Shown in pieces: positions 3,015-9,722 of a stretch of 9,722 bases of DNA (the first letter of the stretch is position 1; every line of letters starts with the position of its first letter). The position numbers and the translations under genes were made by a program. The notes under the pieces were generated by a model. That model searched no databases. It saw nothing but the letters and a program-made list of their open reading frames with translations, and was not told the origin of the DNA. The DNA is from a bacterium (GTDB taxonomy: Bacteria; B130-G9): assembly GCA_021160245.1 (NCBI GenBank), contig JAGHCW010000159.1, forward strand, positions 1-9,722, written 5' to 3'.

Positions 3015-6000
3015 ATGAGAACCTATGGCGTACTAGTTACTTTGCTCACAGTCTGCCTCGTTGTTACATCCTCTTGGGCAGACATCACAGACATAAGACC
3101 CCACCATCCCGCAGACATCTCAGAAGCAAGGTCGCATCTGGCAGACATCAACTGGGACGATCTGCTTAAAGAGCTTGAAGAGGGCTTCGAAAATGAGCCG
3201 CCAGTGGTTCTTGATCCCAGCGATGTCAATTGGTACTACAAGGCAGGCAACTGGATCACGTGCGCGCCGCTTGTCGGTGACGATGGTTCAGTCTATTTCG
3301 GCTCCACAGATGGCAATTTCTACGCCGTCGATTCATCTGGCGTCCTGCAATGGTCATACGCAGAATGCGGCCCGATAGTCGGCGACGCCTCGTTTGACAA
3401 TCAAGGCCGATTGCTCTTTGGCTCGCTCGACGGCGCGGTCTACTGCCTGAGCAAGGACGGCGAGCTGCAATGGAACTATCTGACGGGCGGCCCAATCTTC
3501 TGCAAGCCGGCAGTCGATGGCGATGGCAACGTCTATTTTGGCTCCAATGATGGCTATTTTTACAAATTGTCCGCGGCCGGCGAGGAGGATGAGGTCCTTG
3601 AGGTTGGAGCGTGGATCGACGGCGGTCCTCTTTTTATGCCCGATTCCAGCGTCTGCTTCTCGTCATACAATGGCAATATCTACTGGGTTGATAGCGATTT
3701 GGGCGTTATTCGAACATACGAGGCGCACGCGCATTTGACGAGGGCTTTGAGCGCAGGCGTTGATGGGACGGTCTATGCCGGAAGTCTGAGTGGGGCGCTG
3801 TTTGCCGTTGATTCTACCGGTAGCCTGCTTTGGCAATTCGATACAGGCCGGGCCATATTTTCATCACCGCTCGTGACGGATGATCGGGTATATTTCGGCA
3901 GTGACTCGGGCGTCTTCTACGCGCTGAACCTGAGCGGTGGCGAGAGATGGCGCTACTCACTTACGGACAAAGATATCATCTCCTGCTCACCTGCGCTTGG
4001 GCCTGATGGTAACGTCTATTTCGGCTCCAGCGAGCATAAGGTTTACGGATTCACCAAAGACGGCATTCGCCAATGGTCGTTCAACACGGGCGTTAAAATC
4101 GGCGGAACAACTCTGAGCGGTAAGCCCGTCCTGGGGGGTATCACGATATCCAAGGATGGCACAGCATACTTCGGCAACTGCGCCGGGGTCCTCTTTTCTA
4201 CTGTTCTTACGAGGCGCAAGCTTGATGCGCCTTCGTTCGCCTCTCCATTTGACCGTGCGGCCTCCCGGACAAATCGGTTCGGAATCTCAGTTGCACGCCC
4301 GGCGGGCGGCCATCTCAAAGAGATGAACGTTACTCACCTGGTGGCCGGAGATTGGGAACCGCTAACACCTCTAAATGCTGTGGACATGGCGCTGAAAACG
4401 ATGTGCATGGACCGCGCGGCGCTGGACAGGAACACAGAGGTCTATTACGGCCGGTACCCCTACATTCCCAAATGCGTCTTGGACATAACCGACGACATAC
4501 TGGACGACGCATTCGTCGGGCCGGTCTATAGCAAAGAGCTGACCGATCAATTGATGCTGGACGATGACGAACTCCAAGATTACCTTTTGACAGCCGCAGG
4601 ACCACTGGGTTCGACAGTTTTGCCGGCTGACTATGATCACCCTCTTTCTAATTCGCCCCTTTATGACGCTATTGTTGCGATATACGACCGCAATGGCGAC
4701 CTGCTTTCGACTGCGGAGCAGGCAAAACTTACACAGCAGTGCGGTAACCTGTCACAGGAACTACGACAAGCGATGGCGCTTATCCTCTATGCAATGGACG
4801 AGGCGTCGGTCAACCTGGCCGAGGCATTCAGTGATTTCTCCCCCGGTATTAAGAGCGCTGTTCGTCGGGAATTGGGTACCTATCCGCTGCACTACTACAA
4901 TAGTGAATTCTTGAGTGACGTCTTTGATGAGTGGGAGAAAACGGACCAGGCCGAGCTTCTGAATGGGGCAACCAAGTTCCTTTCCGCCATCACAAAGGCC
5001 GAAGCGTACTTCGCCATCGCGCCTGATTCATCGCTTGATGAGATACTGTTTGAGTTTGATACGCCGATAGGATTCGTGATGGTTGGTGGCGCGCTTGGAA
5101 ATACCTATGACAGCAACACAAATGGTGTCCGTGAGACGAACGCTCTTCTCATCGACATTGGCGGCGACGACCGCTATGAGGGTCGCACGTGTGGGGCATC
5201 GGACGAGGATACGCCTCTTTCTGTTTCCATTGACCTCGCGGGTAATGACGTCTATGAATCGAGTAAATTCGGCTGTCAGGGATGGGGGATGTTCGGCATC
5301 GGAGTTTTGGTGGACGTGTTTGGTGACGACACATACATCGCGGGCGATCATGCCCAGGGCGCCTCAACCTGCGGCATCGGCATTCTGCGAGATGTTTATG
5401 GCAACGATGTCCACATCGGCGAGATGATGGTTCAGGGCGCCTCGGCTTGTGGCGTCGGCCTTCTTGACGATGAATCGGGCGATGACGTTTACTACTCGCC
5501 AAAATACGCTCAGGGATTTGGCTTCACATTTGGCTCCGGCGTCCTTCGCGACGTTGAGGGCGATGACTTCTATTTTGTGGGTGGTTTCGAGGTCGATTTC
5601 AGGGAGAACCAGGAGGGCAAAGAACGCTACGTCTGCATGGGCCAGGGCTTTGGATACGGTCCCCGCCGTGATAACGAGAACTGGCAAGGCGCGGGCGGCA
5701 TCGGCGTTCTAAGCGATGGCAGCGGAAACGACTACTACCTCGGCGACTATTTCTGTCAGGGGTCAAGTTACTGGTTTGCGACGGGCATCCTCGATGACAA
5801 GGCCGGCGATGACGTTTACGTGGCGAGGCGCTATTCTACAGGCGCCGGCATTCACAATAGCGTTGGCGTGCTCGTGGATGAAAGCGGCAATGACGAGTAT
5901 TGGAACTGGGGCGTTGGCATCGGCCACGGTCTGGACGCCTCGGTCGGCATCGTCGTTGATGTTGAGGGGAACGACCACTATTCGGCCAATGGTTGGTACA

Positions 6001-6257
6001 CGATGGGCCACGGCGGCGACGGTCTCGGTGTGCTTCTTGATAACGCCGGCAACGACATGTACAGCATCTTAAGTTCGGGCGGCCTGGGCTGTGGCGCCCC
6101 CTATATGGGCAACTATCGCGTCCCGCTCGGTATATTCATTGACGCCAACGGCACAGACTCCTACACGAGGGAACACAACGAGGCGTTCTGGACCAAGGAC
6201 GAGACAGGCGTCGCCATAGACATGACCGGCGGAGACACCGGCTGCCTCATGCCGTGA
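3015..6257 (+). CDS. Exported PQQ-like beta-propeller protein with a helical middle domain and C-terminal Gly-Asp-Asp-x-Tyr repeats
   Basis: The protein is 1080 residues. Its signal peptide has a hydrophobic stretch at 4-20 and an S-W-A cleavage site ending at 22. A short linker follows in which A-D-I recurs three times (about residues 22-45). Residues 70 to about 405 form an eight-bladed propeller of PQQ/BamB type, with blade motifs such as G-S-V-Y-F-G-S-T-D-G-N-F-Y-A-V and D-G-x-x-x-W turns. Residues about 405-700 are not recognised; they are rich in Leu, Ala and acidic residues in probable helices. From residue 710 to the end there are about 13 copies of a 26-residue repeat with consensus G-[VI]-L-x-D-x-x-G-[DN]-D-x-Y, often with Q-G some 8 residues later. 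The repeats recall calcium-binding beta-solenoids but lack the RTX nonapeptide. A secreted or outer-surface protein is inferred; its ligand is unknown. It lies 134 bases after a gene with the same type of propeller. Confidence 0.85.
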   Translation: MRTYGVLVTLLTVCLVVTSSWADITDIRPHHPADISEARSHLADINWDDLLKELEEGFENEPPVVLDPSDVNWYYKAGNWITCAPLVGDDGSVYFGSTDGNFYAVDSSGVLQWSYAECGPIVGDASFDNQGRLLFGSLDGAVYCLSKDGELQWNYLTGGPIFCKPAVDGDGNVYFGSNDGYFYKLSAAGEEDEVLEVGAWIDGGPLFMPDSSVCFSSYNGNIYWVDSDLGVIRTYEAHAHLTRALSAGVDGTVYAGSLSGALFAVDSTGSLLWQFDTGRAIFSSPLVTDDRVYFGSDSGVFYALNLSGGERWRYSLTDKDIISCSPALGPDGNVYFGSSEHKVYGFTKDGIRQWSFNTGVKIGGTTLSGKPVLGGITISKDGTAYFGNCAGVLFSTVLTRRKLDAPSFASPFDRAASRTNRFGISVARPAGGHLKEMNVTHLVAGDWEPLTPLNAVDMALKTMCMDRAALDRNTEVYYGRYPYIPKCVLDITDDILDDAFVGPVYSKELTDQLMLDDDELQDYLLTAAGPLGSTVLPADYDHPLSNSPLYDAIVAIYDRNGDLLSTAEQAKLTQQCGNLSQELRQAMALILYAMDEASVNLAEAFSDFSPGIKSAVRRELGTYPLHYYNSEFLSDVFDEWEKTDQAELLNGATKFLSAITKAEAYFAIAPDSSLDEILFEFDTPIGFVMVGGALGNTYDSNTNGVRETNALLIDIGGDDRYEGRTCGASDEDTPLSVSIDLAGNDVYESSKFGCQGWGMFGIGVLVDVFGDDTYIAGDHAQGASTCGIGILRDVYGNDVHIGEMMVQGASACGVGLLDDESGDDVYYSPKYAQGFGFTFGSGVLRDVEGDDFYFVGGFEVDFRENQEGKERYVCMGQGFGYGPRRDNENWQGAGGIGVLSDGSGNDYYLGDYFCQGSSYWFATGILDDKAGDDVYVARRYSTGAGIHNSVGVLVDESGNDEYWNWGVGIGHGLDASVGIVVDVEGNDHYSANGWYTMGHGGDGLGVLLDNAGNDMYSILSSGGLGCGAPYMGNYRVPLGIFIDANGTDSYTREHNEAFWTKDETGVAIDMTGGDTGCLMP
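5142..6245 (+). repeat. About 13 copies of a 26-residue G-V-L-x-D-x-x-G-D-D-x-Y repeat
   Basis: The copies are at the C-terminus of the second propeller protein. Each carries a hydrophobic strand (for example G-V-L-V-D-V), then G-[DN]-D-x-Y, then a variable stretch frequently containing Q-G-x-G or Q-G-A-S. One copy, near 5545-5710, has an insertion of about 28 residues. The last two copies degenerate, with G-T-D-S-Y and then G-G-D-T. The regular period and invariant Asp/Gly positions suggest a beta-solenoid, possibly with metal ions bound between the turns. Confidence 0.75.
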
Positions 6258-6293
6258 AAGAGCCTCTGCCACTGCACAAGGTCGCAGGAAGCT

Positions 6294-7529
6294 GTGCGCT
6301 TGCACCATTTTTCCATGATTATGAGTAGATCACCAACTCCAACTAGGTGGTTTTCGCCAGGGCTCCCGGTCAATCCCGAGCGGTTCTACGGGAGGAATAA
6401 GATTGTATGCGAGGTACTGACTCAGGCAAAACGCTCATCTCAAGGCGAATTTGCTAGCATCCTTCTGCTCGGGGAAAGGGGCGCAGGGAAGACCTCTCTT
6501 GCGCACTATCTGAGAAAGGACGCACTTTCGAGAGTCAGACTCACGGCGATCTATGTCAACCTATTGGGAGCGCGAACACCTGAAGATTTTGTGTGTCGCG
6601 TTCTTGAACAGCTATTGAGTACGTCCGCAGAAAACTCAAAATCCAAGGAGGCCACGGACTTGCTCTCGGAATTCTTGGATACGGAAAACCATCTGGGATT
6701 CTCTGCGTTATTCAGCCCAAATCAAGCCGAACTGAAGCACCTGTTCTCGAGGTTTCCGGAGATCATCGCACATGTATCGGAGGCAGTGAATGGCATTCAA
6801 GGCCTTTGCTTATTGCTTGATGATATCGATGATCTCTCCAAGAGCAGGCGGTTCGTAAGTTGGTTCAAGAACTTCATTGAAGATGTAGCGACCCAGAACA
6901 ACGGCCTGCGGCTCTCAATTGTATTCATAGGCCGCCCTGAAGTCACGTTGGCCTTGAGCAGACACGAACCTACGCTGGCGCGGACCTTCGATGTCCTTCA
7001 CGTTCCTGCGCATCTTTCGGACGGTGAGATGCGTCTTTTTCTTAGAACAGGATTGAATAGTATAGGGGCTGCCGTTGACGATGCGGCGTTTGACGCACTT
7101 CTCGCTTTTTGTGGTCGCCTACCCATTCTTGCCCACGAAGTTGGACACGCAGTCTCATACTGGGATGGTGCTCTGATTGACGAGTGCGCCGCCCGTGGCA
7201 TTGCCACGAGCGCCGCAAATACTCTCGTCGGCAAGTGTATTCCTCCCAGGATGCAGGAGTCGATTTCAACGCTCTTGAAAATGCAGTTTCGCTTTGCGAC
7301 ATTGACTCATGAATGGACGCGCGCTTTCAGAACAAAAGATCTATTTGGACACGGGGACGCGGATACTCTCATTAGGGCACTGGTGACGGAGATGGAGGAC
7401 TTGGAGCTTATCTCTTGTGACAGCGGCGCAGCTGGCTGGTACCAGTTTGTGCCGGAGGGATGGTATAGCAGTTTCACTCTATGCTGGACAGCGCTAGCTA
7501 ATGCGCGGGAGCTTCAGCTAGATACGTGA
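6294..7529 (+). CDS. Orphan AAA-type ATPase, Orc1/Cdc6-like or STAND-like
   Basis: The protein is 411 residues from a GTG at 6294, with AGGA four bases upstream; in-frame ATGs at 6315 and 6321 are alternatives. It is a cytosolic P-loop NTPase. An N-terminal N-P-E-R-F-Y-G-R box lies at about 27-34, as in Orc/Cdc6 and STAND ATPases. Walker A is G-E-R-G-A-G-K-T-S at 60-68 and Walker B is L-C-L-L-L-D-D-I-D-D at 171-180. A sensor-1-like strand I-V-F-I-G-R-P-E lies at 209-216, and a sensor-2/lid-like G-R-L-P-I-L-A-H-E-V at 274-283. The last hundred residues look helical and could be a winged-helix domain. No effector domain is fused. The gene follows the second propeller gene by 36 bases and abuts hutI. 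Its codon choice seems less GC-biased by eye than the flanking genes, which hints at acquisition. Its target or function is not known; the ATPase assignment is firm. Confidence 0.8.
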   Translation: MRLHHFSMIMSRSPTPTRWFSPGLPVNPERFYGRNKIVCEVLTQAKRSSQGEFASILLLGERGAGKTSLAHYLRKDALSRVRLTAIYVNLLGARTPEDFVCRVLEQLLSTSAENSKSKEATDLLSEFLDTENHLGFSALFSPNQAELKHLFSRFPEIIAHVSEAVNGIQGLCLLLDDIDDLSKSRRFVSWFKNFIEDVATQNNGLRLSIVFIGRPEVTLALSRHEPTLARTFDVLHVPAHLSDGEMRLFLRTGLNSIGAAVDDAAFDALLAFCGRLPILAHEVGHAVSYWDGALIDECAARGIATSAANTLVGKCIPPRMQESISTLLKMQFRFATLTHEWTRAFRTKDLFGHGDADTLIRALVTEMEDLELISCDSGAAGWYQFVPEGWYSSFTLCWTALANARELQLDT

Positions 7530-7555: not shown

Positions 7556-8857
7556 ATGGTAAATACCGTCCTCCTCACAAACATCTCCGAGCTGGTAACC
7601 GTCTCCCAGTCTGGTGAGCGGTGTAAGCGAGGCGCGGGGCTGCGGGAGCTCAATATCATCCGCGATGGGGCGGTGGCCACCAGAGGGGACGAGATTGTCT
7701 GGGTCGGCCTTACGTCGGAGCTGCCGCGTAATATCGCTCGGGATGCCGATGTGACGATTGATTGCTCCGGCAAGACCGTGCTTCCGGGCCTCGTCGATTG
7801 CCATACCCATTTCGTCTTTGGCGGTTCCCGCGAGAATGAGTACGCGATGCGATGCGAGGGCAAGAGCTACAGCGAGATGGCCGAGGCCGGCGGGGGCATC
7901 AAGAGCTCAATGCGAGCCACGCGTGAGCTCTCGCTTGAGCAGATGATCGAGATAGGCCGCCTCCACCTCGACCAAATGCTTCTTTTGGGAACCACGACGG
8001 TTGAGGGCAAGAGCGACTACGGTCTCGATTTCGACACGGAGATCAAACTCTTGCGAGCGATGCGTGAGCTTGACGATACCCATCCGGCGACAGTTGTCCC
8101 CACGTTTCTTGGGGCACATGTTGTCCCAGATGGGGTCTCGCGCACAAAATATCTCTCGGTTGTTCTTGAGGAGATGATTCCATACATCGCGGAGCATCGG
8201 CTGGCAGAGTTCTGCGACGTCTTCTGCGATGAGGGCGCTTTCACTGTTGACGAGGCGCGGTTCGTCCTTCGTGAGGGCAAGCGTTTTGGGCTGATCCCCA
8301 AGATACACACCGACCAATTCGCCTCATTTGGCGGTTGTGAGCTCGCAGCGGAGGAGGAAGCGATTTCCGCCGATCATCTCGACGCCGTCCGTCAGAGCGA
8401 TATTGACGCGCTTGCCTCGAACGACATCGCGGGCGTTCTGCTTCCCGGTTGCGTATTCTTCTTGGGCCTAAACAAGTACGCCCCGGCGAGGCGCATGATC
8501 GACTCGAATTTGCCGATTGCTCTGGCCACGGACTTTAACCCCGGCTCGTGCAACATTCGCTCGCTCCCGATTATCATGACAATCGCCTGCTCCAAGATGC
8601 GAATGCACCCGCGTGAGGCGATAGGGGCTTGCACTCTGAATGCTGCGTTTGCGCTTGGGCTCTCTGCGCAGATAGGTAGTATTGAGGTAGGGAAGAGGGC
8701 CGACCTCGTCCTCTTCGATGCAGACAACTCGCTCCACATCCCCTACGAATGCGGCCACAACCTGGTGAACACAGTCATCAAAGACGGTCGCGTCGTTGTC
8801 CGCGATGGCTGTAAGCTCGAAAGGAATAAAGAGACAACATTGGGGAAGCGCGCATGA
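7556..8857 (+). CDS. hutI: Imidazolonepropionase
   Basis: HutI hydrolyses 4-imidazolone-5-propionate to N-formimino-L-glutamate, the third step of histidine degradation, in the cytosol. It belongs to the amidohydrolase superfamily. The 433-residue product (from ATG 7556) has the metal ligands H-T-H at 83-85, H251 in K-I-H-T-D-Q, and D326 in A-T-D-F-N-P-G-S. It also has the substrate-site G-A-H at 187-189, the family blocks F-G-G-S-R-E-N-E and A-G-G-G-I, and a C-terminal G-K-R-A-D-L-V-L-F block. Length fits the family (about 400-420). The K-S-G-Y-G-L motif usual in HutI reads K-S-D-Y-G-L here, keeping the Tyr. A GTG at 7526 that overlaps the ATPase stop (GTGA) could be the true start and would add 10 residues; ATG 7556 fits the family length better. 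No other hut gene is visible, so any pathway partners must be elsewhere. Confidence 0.93.
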
Positions 8858-9030
8858 GATCATTCGTCAGCTATATCGAGTATGATCCCGAAACGAAACT
8901 ATATGTCGGAATCGTGCCGGGAATACCAGGCGCCCACACGCAGGCCGCCACGCTGGATGAACCCAATCACAATCTTAAAGAAGTCCTGGGGCTATGCCTG
9001 GAGGAGCTGGGGGACGAAATTGAGAACTAG
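8854..9030 (+). CDS. HicB-family antitoxin-like protein, truncated by an in-frame TAG
   Basis: The 58-residue product starts at an ATG overlapping the hutI stop (ATGA), which suggests translational coupling. It reads [14 protein letters not shown], then [14 protein letters not shown] and [12 protein letters not shown]. This is the partial RNase-H-like fold of short HicB proteins, which neutralise the HicA mRNA interferase by direct binding. A conserved Leu in the T-L-D-E-L stretch is Pro here. The frame ends at TAG 9028-9030, where the family usually continues for about 13 residues. Those residues are still encoded after the stop (see the next entry), so this is a damaged gene. The folded core may survive, but the protein has no intact toxin beside it. 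Confidence 0.7.
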
Positions 9031-9263: not shown

Positions 9264-9308
9264 AAACACGATGTTGGTGAGCTATGATTTTTCGGGCAAA
9301 AATATACC

Positions 9309-9336
9309 TTGACAAGGCGGCAATGTGCCCTAAACT
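9309..9336 (+). promoter_or_regulatory. Sigma-70-like promoter of the cysteine-rich peptide gene
   Basis: TTGACA at 9309-9314 matches the -35 consensus exactly. After a 16-base gap comes TAAACT at 9331-9336, four of six matches to the -10 box. Transcription would start near 9343, leaving a leader of about 28 bases with GGGGAG at 9361-9366 just before ATG 9371. An in-frame start upstream at 9284 would lie ahead of this promoter, which supports the ATG at 9371. Confidence 0.6.
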
Positions 9337-9370
9337 GACGTTCTCGCATTCAAATCTAATGGGGAGTATC

Positions 9371-9574
9371 ATGGTTAGGCAGAACGGTGAACTGACAATC
9401 CCATTGCAGATGACTTCTGAAGAAGAACAACTGGTGATTGAGTCCTATATACGTGATGAGGTTCAGCTTGAGTATGCAAACAGAGCCAATGCAGTTACGG
9501 CCTGCTCATGCAGATGTGTATCCCACTGCTCCTGTGACTGTGATCGGTGCGGGATAGCCGGTTTCCGGGCGTGA
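9371..9574 (+). CDS. Small cysteine-rich peptide, candidate RiPP precursor
   Basis: The product is 67 residues, starting at ATG 9371 behind GGGGAG and its own promoter. Residues 1-44 are acidic and probably helical (E-E-E-Q-L-V-I-E-S-Y-I-R-D-E) and contain no cysteine. Residues 45-60 hold seven cysteines spaced C-x-C-x-C-x-x-x-C-x-C-x-C-x-x-C, interleaved with Ser, Asp, Arg and His. A short G-I-A-G-F-R-A tail follows. This split into a leader and a modifiable core is what precursors of ribosomally made, post-translationally modified peptides look like, with thioether (radical SAM) or azoline chemistry as options. I do not recognise the family. A small metal-binding protein is the main alternative. 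An open frame that may encode a processing enzyme begins about 50 bases downstream and leaves the window. Confidence 0.6.
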   Translation: MVRQNGELTIPLQMTSEEEQLVIESYIRDEVQLEYANRANAVTACSCRCVSHCSCDCDRCGIAGFRA

Positions 9575-9623
9575 GATTCTCGTCAATGTCCCCTTGCTGC
9601 TCTCGCCAATCCTTGGCCTCGGG

Positions 9624-9722
9624 ATGACACATTCTCCGGTACCAGTATATATCAGAACAATCAAAGATGAGATATGGCTGATCCCACAGCCAGATGATAT
9701 CGTTCTAGTTTATGTCCCGTTG
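9624..9722 (+). CDS. Start of an unidentified protein, cut by the window edge
   Basis: The 33 visible codons from ATG 9624 stay open to the last base. The product starts M-T-H-S-P-V-P-V-Y-I-R and continues with W-L-I-P-Q-P-D-D-I-V-L-V-Y-V-P-L. The frame is open from 9558, but no good ribosome binding site precedes the ATG, so the start is uncertain; TTG 9594 is another option. The I-V-L-V-Y-V-P-L strand resembles, from memory only, the N-terminal segment preceding the radical SAM core in some peptide maturases, which would suit the neighbouring candidate precursor. No catalytic motif (such as C-x-x-x-C-x-x-C) is in view, so no function is assigned. Confidence 0.4.
   Translation, partial: MTHSPVPVYIRTIKDEIWLIPQPDDIVLVYVPL

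Follow-up and report, generated by a model that had tools for sequence, protein, structure and literature searches.

A seven-cysteine peptide at a contig end, most probably the precursor of an undescribed family of radical SAM/SPASM RiPPs

The peptide gene and the contig end

The window analysed here is an entire contig (G000:C74, 9,722 nt), whose sequence ends at position 9722, 148 nt after a small gene, P0001 (9371–9574, + strand). Translation of 9371–9574 gave the 67-aa peptide MVRQNGELTIPLQMTSEEEQLVIESYIRDEVQLEYANRANAVTACSCRCVSHCSCDCDRCGIAGFRA*, with cysteines at residues 45, 47, 49, 53, 55, 57 and 60 in the spacing C-x-C-x-C-x3-C-x-C-x-C-x2-C, which confirmed the seven-cysteine pattern within C45–C60 that an earlier note had read at this locus. 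Residues 1–44 (9371–9502), described there as acidic and cysteine-free, indeed contain no cysteine and, with 8 D/E and 3 R, have a net charge near −5; they are referred to below as the leader, and residues 45–67 with the seven cysteines as the core (9503–9571). The core contains only two Asp residues, the peptide ends in GFRA, and it has no Trp. The cysteine stretch is the densest 16-aa open stretch in all six frames of the window (7 cysteines; runner-up 4), and of 300 windows simulated with a first-order Markov model, one reached the same density. Taken alone, the composition of P0001 is unusual and not decisive.

A second, longer in-frame start lies at 9284; the start at 9371 was favoured because the peptides of the relatives described below are 57–62 aa long. 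The sequence contains a Shine-Dalgarno-like GGGGAG (9361–9366, + strand, with GGGAG at 9362–9366) located 4 nt 5′ of the ATG at 9371. The promoter that the earlier note had assigned to the gene corresponds to a σ70-like TTGACA-16-TAAACT (9309–9336, + strand) matching 10 of 12 consensus bases; with three promoter-like sites found near P0001 against 0.9 expected in shuffles, this candidate promoter appears plausible but weak. In the upstream flank, outside the proposed operon, a lone frame for a small HicB/UPF0150-like protein (8854–9030, + strand) gave a weak Pfam match below the cut-off. Elsewhere, the window encodes two large PQQ-type beta-propeller repeat proteins, the first (64–2880) containing many D-x-N-G-N-G calcium-site-like repeats and the second lying at 3015–6257.

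Downstream of P0001, the open frame already noticed on the same strand proved real and runs to the contig end. It starts 50 nt past the stop codon, and its 33 codons (9624–9722, + strand; MTHSPVPVYIRTIKDEIWLIPQPDDIVLVYVPL...) read as the beginning of a radical SAM/SPASM maturase when compared with an N-terminal profile built from the first residues of nine full-length enzyme relatives. Searched against the window, this profile best matched the frame 9558–9722 (E = 6.9e-5); searched against the whole genome (3.43 Mb, six frames), it best matched 9666–9722 (E = 0.0235), the next match being at E = 1.14, so that the window end is the sole genome match below 0.1. This apparent N-terminus belongs to the type of gene that the earlier note had proposed to look for within 5 kb of the peptide; the enzyme was invisible to its author because the contig stops 148 nt 3′ of P0001.

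The genome of the window gave 71 radical SAM matches, from which the subset with a SPASM domain was then listed. One contig of this genome, C87 (9622 bp), ends inside a radical SAM/SPASM gene that has no N-terminus (9622 down to 8364, − strand), and we propose this gene as the body of the maturase, continuing window 9624–9722. At E ≤ 1e-60, the family profile matched nothing in the genome but the C87 enzyme, which is missing only the N-terminal part that the window frame matches. When both pieces are placed in the family alignment, that of the window stops at VYVPL and C87 begins at LGVFDF, with three columns between them that read RSF, RSY or RGY in close relatives. The ends of C74 and C87 showed no sequence overlap, and the last 27 bases of the window are shared by no other contig of the genome. 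On the basis of the N-terminal profile matches, the three-column gap and the peptide-to-enzyme gene order at the related locus L062, which is also that of the proposed join, we infer that a single gene very probably spans the two contig ends. Three other contigs that have a radical SAM gene close to their start were discarded as continuations: the radical SAM genes of C124 and C125 have their own start codons, and the enzyme of C44, without a SPASM match, represents another radical SAM type.

On C87, the enzyme gene is followed on the other strand by a HicB-like/HicA pair (L059, 7934–8322), and the contig also bears HEPN/nucleotidyltransferase gene pairs. A dedicated protease or transporter for P0001 was recognised on neither C74 nor C87.

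Relatives of the enzyme and of the peptide

Searches with the peptide itself covered 98 genomes, three of them from its own family, as well as viral contigs, genome contigs, plasmids and phages, and brought up no convincing relative. Matches at E 0.002–0.09 in the genomes of relatives looked, at those loci that were inspected, like chance frames overlapping other genes. Comparison of P0001 with Pfam and NCBIfam yielded nothing above cut-off, and comparison with solved structures yielded no convincing match.

Relatives were found by searches with the C87 enzyme family alone, the peptide being unused. The C87 protein scan revealed two loci in genome contigs, L060 in a Eubacteriales MAG and L061 in a Spirochaetaceae MAG, and one in viral contigs, L062 (IMGVR_UViG_3300048574_000532, a viral-collection contig), and at each of them a small cysteine-rich precursor is encoded directly beside the enzyme (MEATVAVKTDGMSMNELIKSLIISEVDLGYDKRQNILMSCSNDGCNRISYCSCDCNDSSW, MEAVVDVGLEQELQNLILSEVDLQYHKKQNVLLSCSSDGCSRISYCSCDCNDGSGTW and MDKRETPVSTKQTVTRKPKLDELLQVEIRWEPSPAVTSGCDRDGCNRINFCGCDCNDSSGTW, respectively). 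Nine viral stretches matched a DNA-level pattern of the CxCDC core; the one genuine locus among them was already known. The four known precursors align in the leader at EVxLxYxxRxN, weakest in L062, and in the core at CxCDC, corresponding to C53-x-C55-D56-C57 of P0001. Across these four sequences the leader EVxLxY is kept, with L062 the most divergent, and the length of the core and its cysteine spacing vary, the N-terminal cysteines being spaced CxCxC in P0001 versus Cx4C in the other precursors. None of the four matched an NCBIfam precursor model above cut-off.

The homology of P0001 to these peptides was evident in direct comparison with the L060 peptide (BLASTP 5e-10, 36% over 55 aa). A profile of the three relatives, containing nothing from the window, selected P0001 among all window frames (5.7e-7; next 0.31). 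Whether the leader was shuffled by itself or along with the core, 0 of 2000 shuffles reached the score of P0001. When the leader was kept and the non-cysteine core residues were shuffled, 20 of 2000 scored as well, indicating that the likeness of the P0001 core is mostly that of its cysteines. Homologues with a conserved leader had been named by the earlier note as a further thing to look for, and with three of them, each directly beside a radical SAM/SPASM enzyme, and an apparent enzyme N-terminus next to P0001, its suggestion of a RiPP precursor gained support. The findings that it had named as speaking against that suggestion, a modification enzyme near none of the homologues or cysteines forming a characterised metal site, were not encountered.

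The C87 enzyme contains a CxxxCxxC motif and SPASM cysteines; C65-x3-C69-x2-C72, C318 and C359...C383 are invariant in the enzyme alignment, and TIGR04085 detected the SPASM domain over its cut-off. Against NCBIfam, C87 matched PapB (9e-32), nif11-like (2e-29) and SCIFF (2e-25) maturases, all far below the family cut-offs, and none of the enzymes reached an equivalog cut-off; for the enzymes of L060, L061 and L062, the two best NCBIfam matches were thioether-forming enzymes. By sequence, the closest solved protein was the SCIFF thioether maturase CteB (5WGG/5WHY, 1.3e-29). CteB was also the closest match in a fold search with a model of the L060 enzyme (4e-19, nearly full-length alignment, mean pLDDT 68), whose N-terminus was predicted to form strands and three helices in the arrangement of a RiPP recognition element (pLDDT about 60).

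In the tree, C87 and the L060, L061 and L062 enzymes formed a clade with support 94/97, apart from the enzymes of other cysteine-rich peptides and from the genome's other SPASM proteins; several branches of the tree were long. Sampling of other genomes from the order and class of L060 and the class of L061 returned only more distant enzymes, and a sample of 386 genomes around that of the window gave a strong match in G000 alone. The close enzyme clade is rare.

Cysteine-rich proteins also follow enzymes of the wider circle at L066, L067, L081 and L086. At L066 (865–1314, − strand) and L067 (910–1368, − strand), the gene of a related radical SAM/SPASM enzyme is immediately followed by one for a 150-aa protein with a long CxCxxxC repeat tail, and a small PqqD-like protein (a weak match in L066) is encoded upstream; the repeat proteins gave no NCBIfam match. 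At L086 (2820–3410), a 196-aa protein with a cysteine-rich tail directly follows a 519-aa enzyme relative. Radical SAM relatives on plasmids were assigned to other systems, although at L081 (5182–5568; NZ_CP143316.1, a Methylocystis iwaonis plasmid) a 128-aa CxC-rich ORF, absent from the listed gene table, comes after the radical SAM gene and looks like another precursor.

All three close relatives carry a third gene beside the precursor and maturase genes (L060 7490–8428; L061 7349–8182; L062 about 6010–6993). The encoded proteins share only about 20% identity, yet the Asp-rich motifs known from prenyl diphosphate synthases, LxDxxxD and DDxxDxxxD, are invariant in the three sequences. Pfam polyprenyl_synt gave a weak match (E = 0.014), and the best fold matches of a model too poor to identify the protein (pLDDT 41) were polyprenyl synthases (E = 0.08). 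The precursors of all three relatives end in a C-terminal Trp, so that the Trp and the third gene co-occur in 3 of 3 loci; after the C87 enzyme no prenyl-synthase-like gene was found, the HicA/HicB-like pair being located there. PalQ, an isoprenoid-synthase-like enzyme, prenylates the C-terminal Trp of a RiPP (PMC10853753), and the analogy suggests that the relatives' precursors may receive a second, PalQ-like modification. Trans-IDS-like Trp prenyltransferases have a conserved, Trp-recognising Gln shortly before the second Asp motif (PMC13290415). The residues preceding DD in the third-gene proteins are WLI, LIS and LAV; lacking the Gln, these proteins do not fit that group in this feature, and the likeness to PalQ is one of analogy.

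Proposed maturation and alternative explanations

We consider it likely that P0001 serves as precursor to a radical-SAM RiPP of the thioether type (PapB/SCIFF-like), that its family is undescribed, and that its enzyme is encoded immediately downstream, split between C74 and C87. What is shown directly is P0001, its homologous peptides, the family to which the enzyme belongs, and three other loci at which the enzyme and peptide genes are neighbours; we infer the contig join, the formation of thioethers, the binding of the leader, the cleavage step and the biological role. The leader, about residues 1–44, would bind the predicted N-terminal RRE-like domain of strands and three helices in the enzyme, itself encoded directly 3′ of P0001 and presumably divided by the assembly between the two contigs. 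By analogy with PapB and the SCIFF maturase CteB, SAM and [4Fe-4S] clusters would generate a 5′-deoxyadenosyl radical that takes hydrogen from acceptor residues of the core, to which cysteine sulfurs would be joined as thioethers, each link removing 2 H. The conserved C-x-C-D-C may be the main thioether target, and the remaining cysteines might use other acceptors, form disulfides or stay free; a protease and an exporter would then release the core. PapB links Cys to Asp or Glu and accepts Cys-Xn-Asp with n = 0 to 6 (PMC9413430); because the P0001 core has only two Asp, links of this type could involve at most a minority of its seven cysteines.

That excess of cysteines over obvious acceptors also bears on the reading that P0001 is the true substrate and its product is no thioether, the enzyme forming other links (a C–C cyclophane, epimerisation or similar) and the cysteines remaining free for metal or disulfides. 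Models of enzymes with other or unknown chemistries (nif11-like, DynA, YhhB, GrrM) score in the same range as those of thioether maturases. We nevertheless regard this outcome as unlikely, as the cysteines are the conserved part of every core, and the closest structure and the two best NCBIfam matches of the L060–L062 enzymes are thioether-forming enzymes, even if the second-best match of C87 itself is a nif11-like maturase. The spacings C-x-C and C-x-x-C resemble those of metallothioneins, and one relative has a sub-threshold zf-MYND zinc-finger match (E = 0.07), both of which would suit a small metal- or Fe-S-binding protein with a coincidental enzyme neighbour. We judge this very improbable: in three unrelated loci homologous peptides have an enzyme of the C87 family as neighbour, structure comparison gave no convincing match, no Pfam or NCBIfam model scored above cut-off, and a conserved cysteine-free leader is not expected of a metallothionein.

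It is conceivable in principle, given that the join was unseen in sequence and that the genome holds 71 radical SAM matches, that C87 serves another precursor and 9624–9722 starts an unrelated gene, P0001 still being a precursor with its enzyme elsewhere. The chance of this appears slight, since the N-terminal profile has its only genome match below 0.1 at the window end, the sole family match at E ≤ 1e-60 lacks precisely that N-terminus, and the only relatives of P0001 adjoin the only close relatives of C87. Beyond the preferred thioether-type reading, we entertain as possible, while leaning against it, that P0001 is a plain member of a family in which the relatives are doubly modified, with the cysteine core cross-linked and the C-terminal Trp lipidated by the prenyl-synthase-like enzyme.

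Comparison with known systems

The P0001 system most probably represents a radical SAM/SPASM cysteine-rich RiPP of an undescribed family, the general pairing of such enzymes and peptides being already known. The family would be small and scattered over the window's sparsely sampled lineage, Bacillota, Spirochaetota and one viral-collection contig, and NCBIfam models recruit it neither by its precursor nor, at the equivalog level, by its maturase. The chemistry it suggests is testable. Should the product of the third gene modify the C-terminal Trp, one pathway would combine radical thioether cyclisation with lipidation; we found no description of radical SAM cross-linking and Trp lipidation together.

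Like PalX in the PalQ/ComQ systems, the precursors of L060–L062 end in Trp and are encoded beside an isoprenyl-synthase-like gene (PMC10853753, PMC13290415). However, the PalQ paper mentions no radical SAM enzyme (PMC10853753), the conserved Gln before the second Asp motif is absent from the L060–L062 proteins, and P0001 has neither a Trp nor a prenyl-synthase-like gene found beside it. The same pairing of enzyme and cysteine-rich peptide is known from TIGR04463 (radical SAM paired with a C-rich peptide) and CcpM (TIGR04068), but scores to these models were only 46–68 bits against cut-offs of 500–525, and the precursors matched no model. The SCIFF system (CteA/CteB, TIGR03974) provides the nearest solved structure and likewise has a short leader and cysteine core, with an N-terminal RRE-like region in the enzyme that is predicted here too; in contrast, the enzymes scored 84–90 bits against a cut-off of 425 (C87, 89.5), the precursor failed the SCIFF model, and the C87-type family is scattered sporadically across phyla. 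PapB (NF047865) was the best NCBIfam match of the close clade, at about 98–113 bits over the catalytic and SPASM parts (C87, 110.6), well short of the 340 bits set as its equivalog cut-off. The leader differs from that of PapA, and neither P0001 nor its relatives contain an in-line CX3D array comparable to the CX3D/E repeats of PapA, yet in PapB/PapA (freyrasin, a ranthipeptide), too, the substrate of a radical SAM/SPASM maturase is a small cysteine-rich precursor whose core has a conserved Asp adjoining a Cys.
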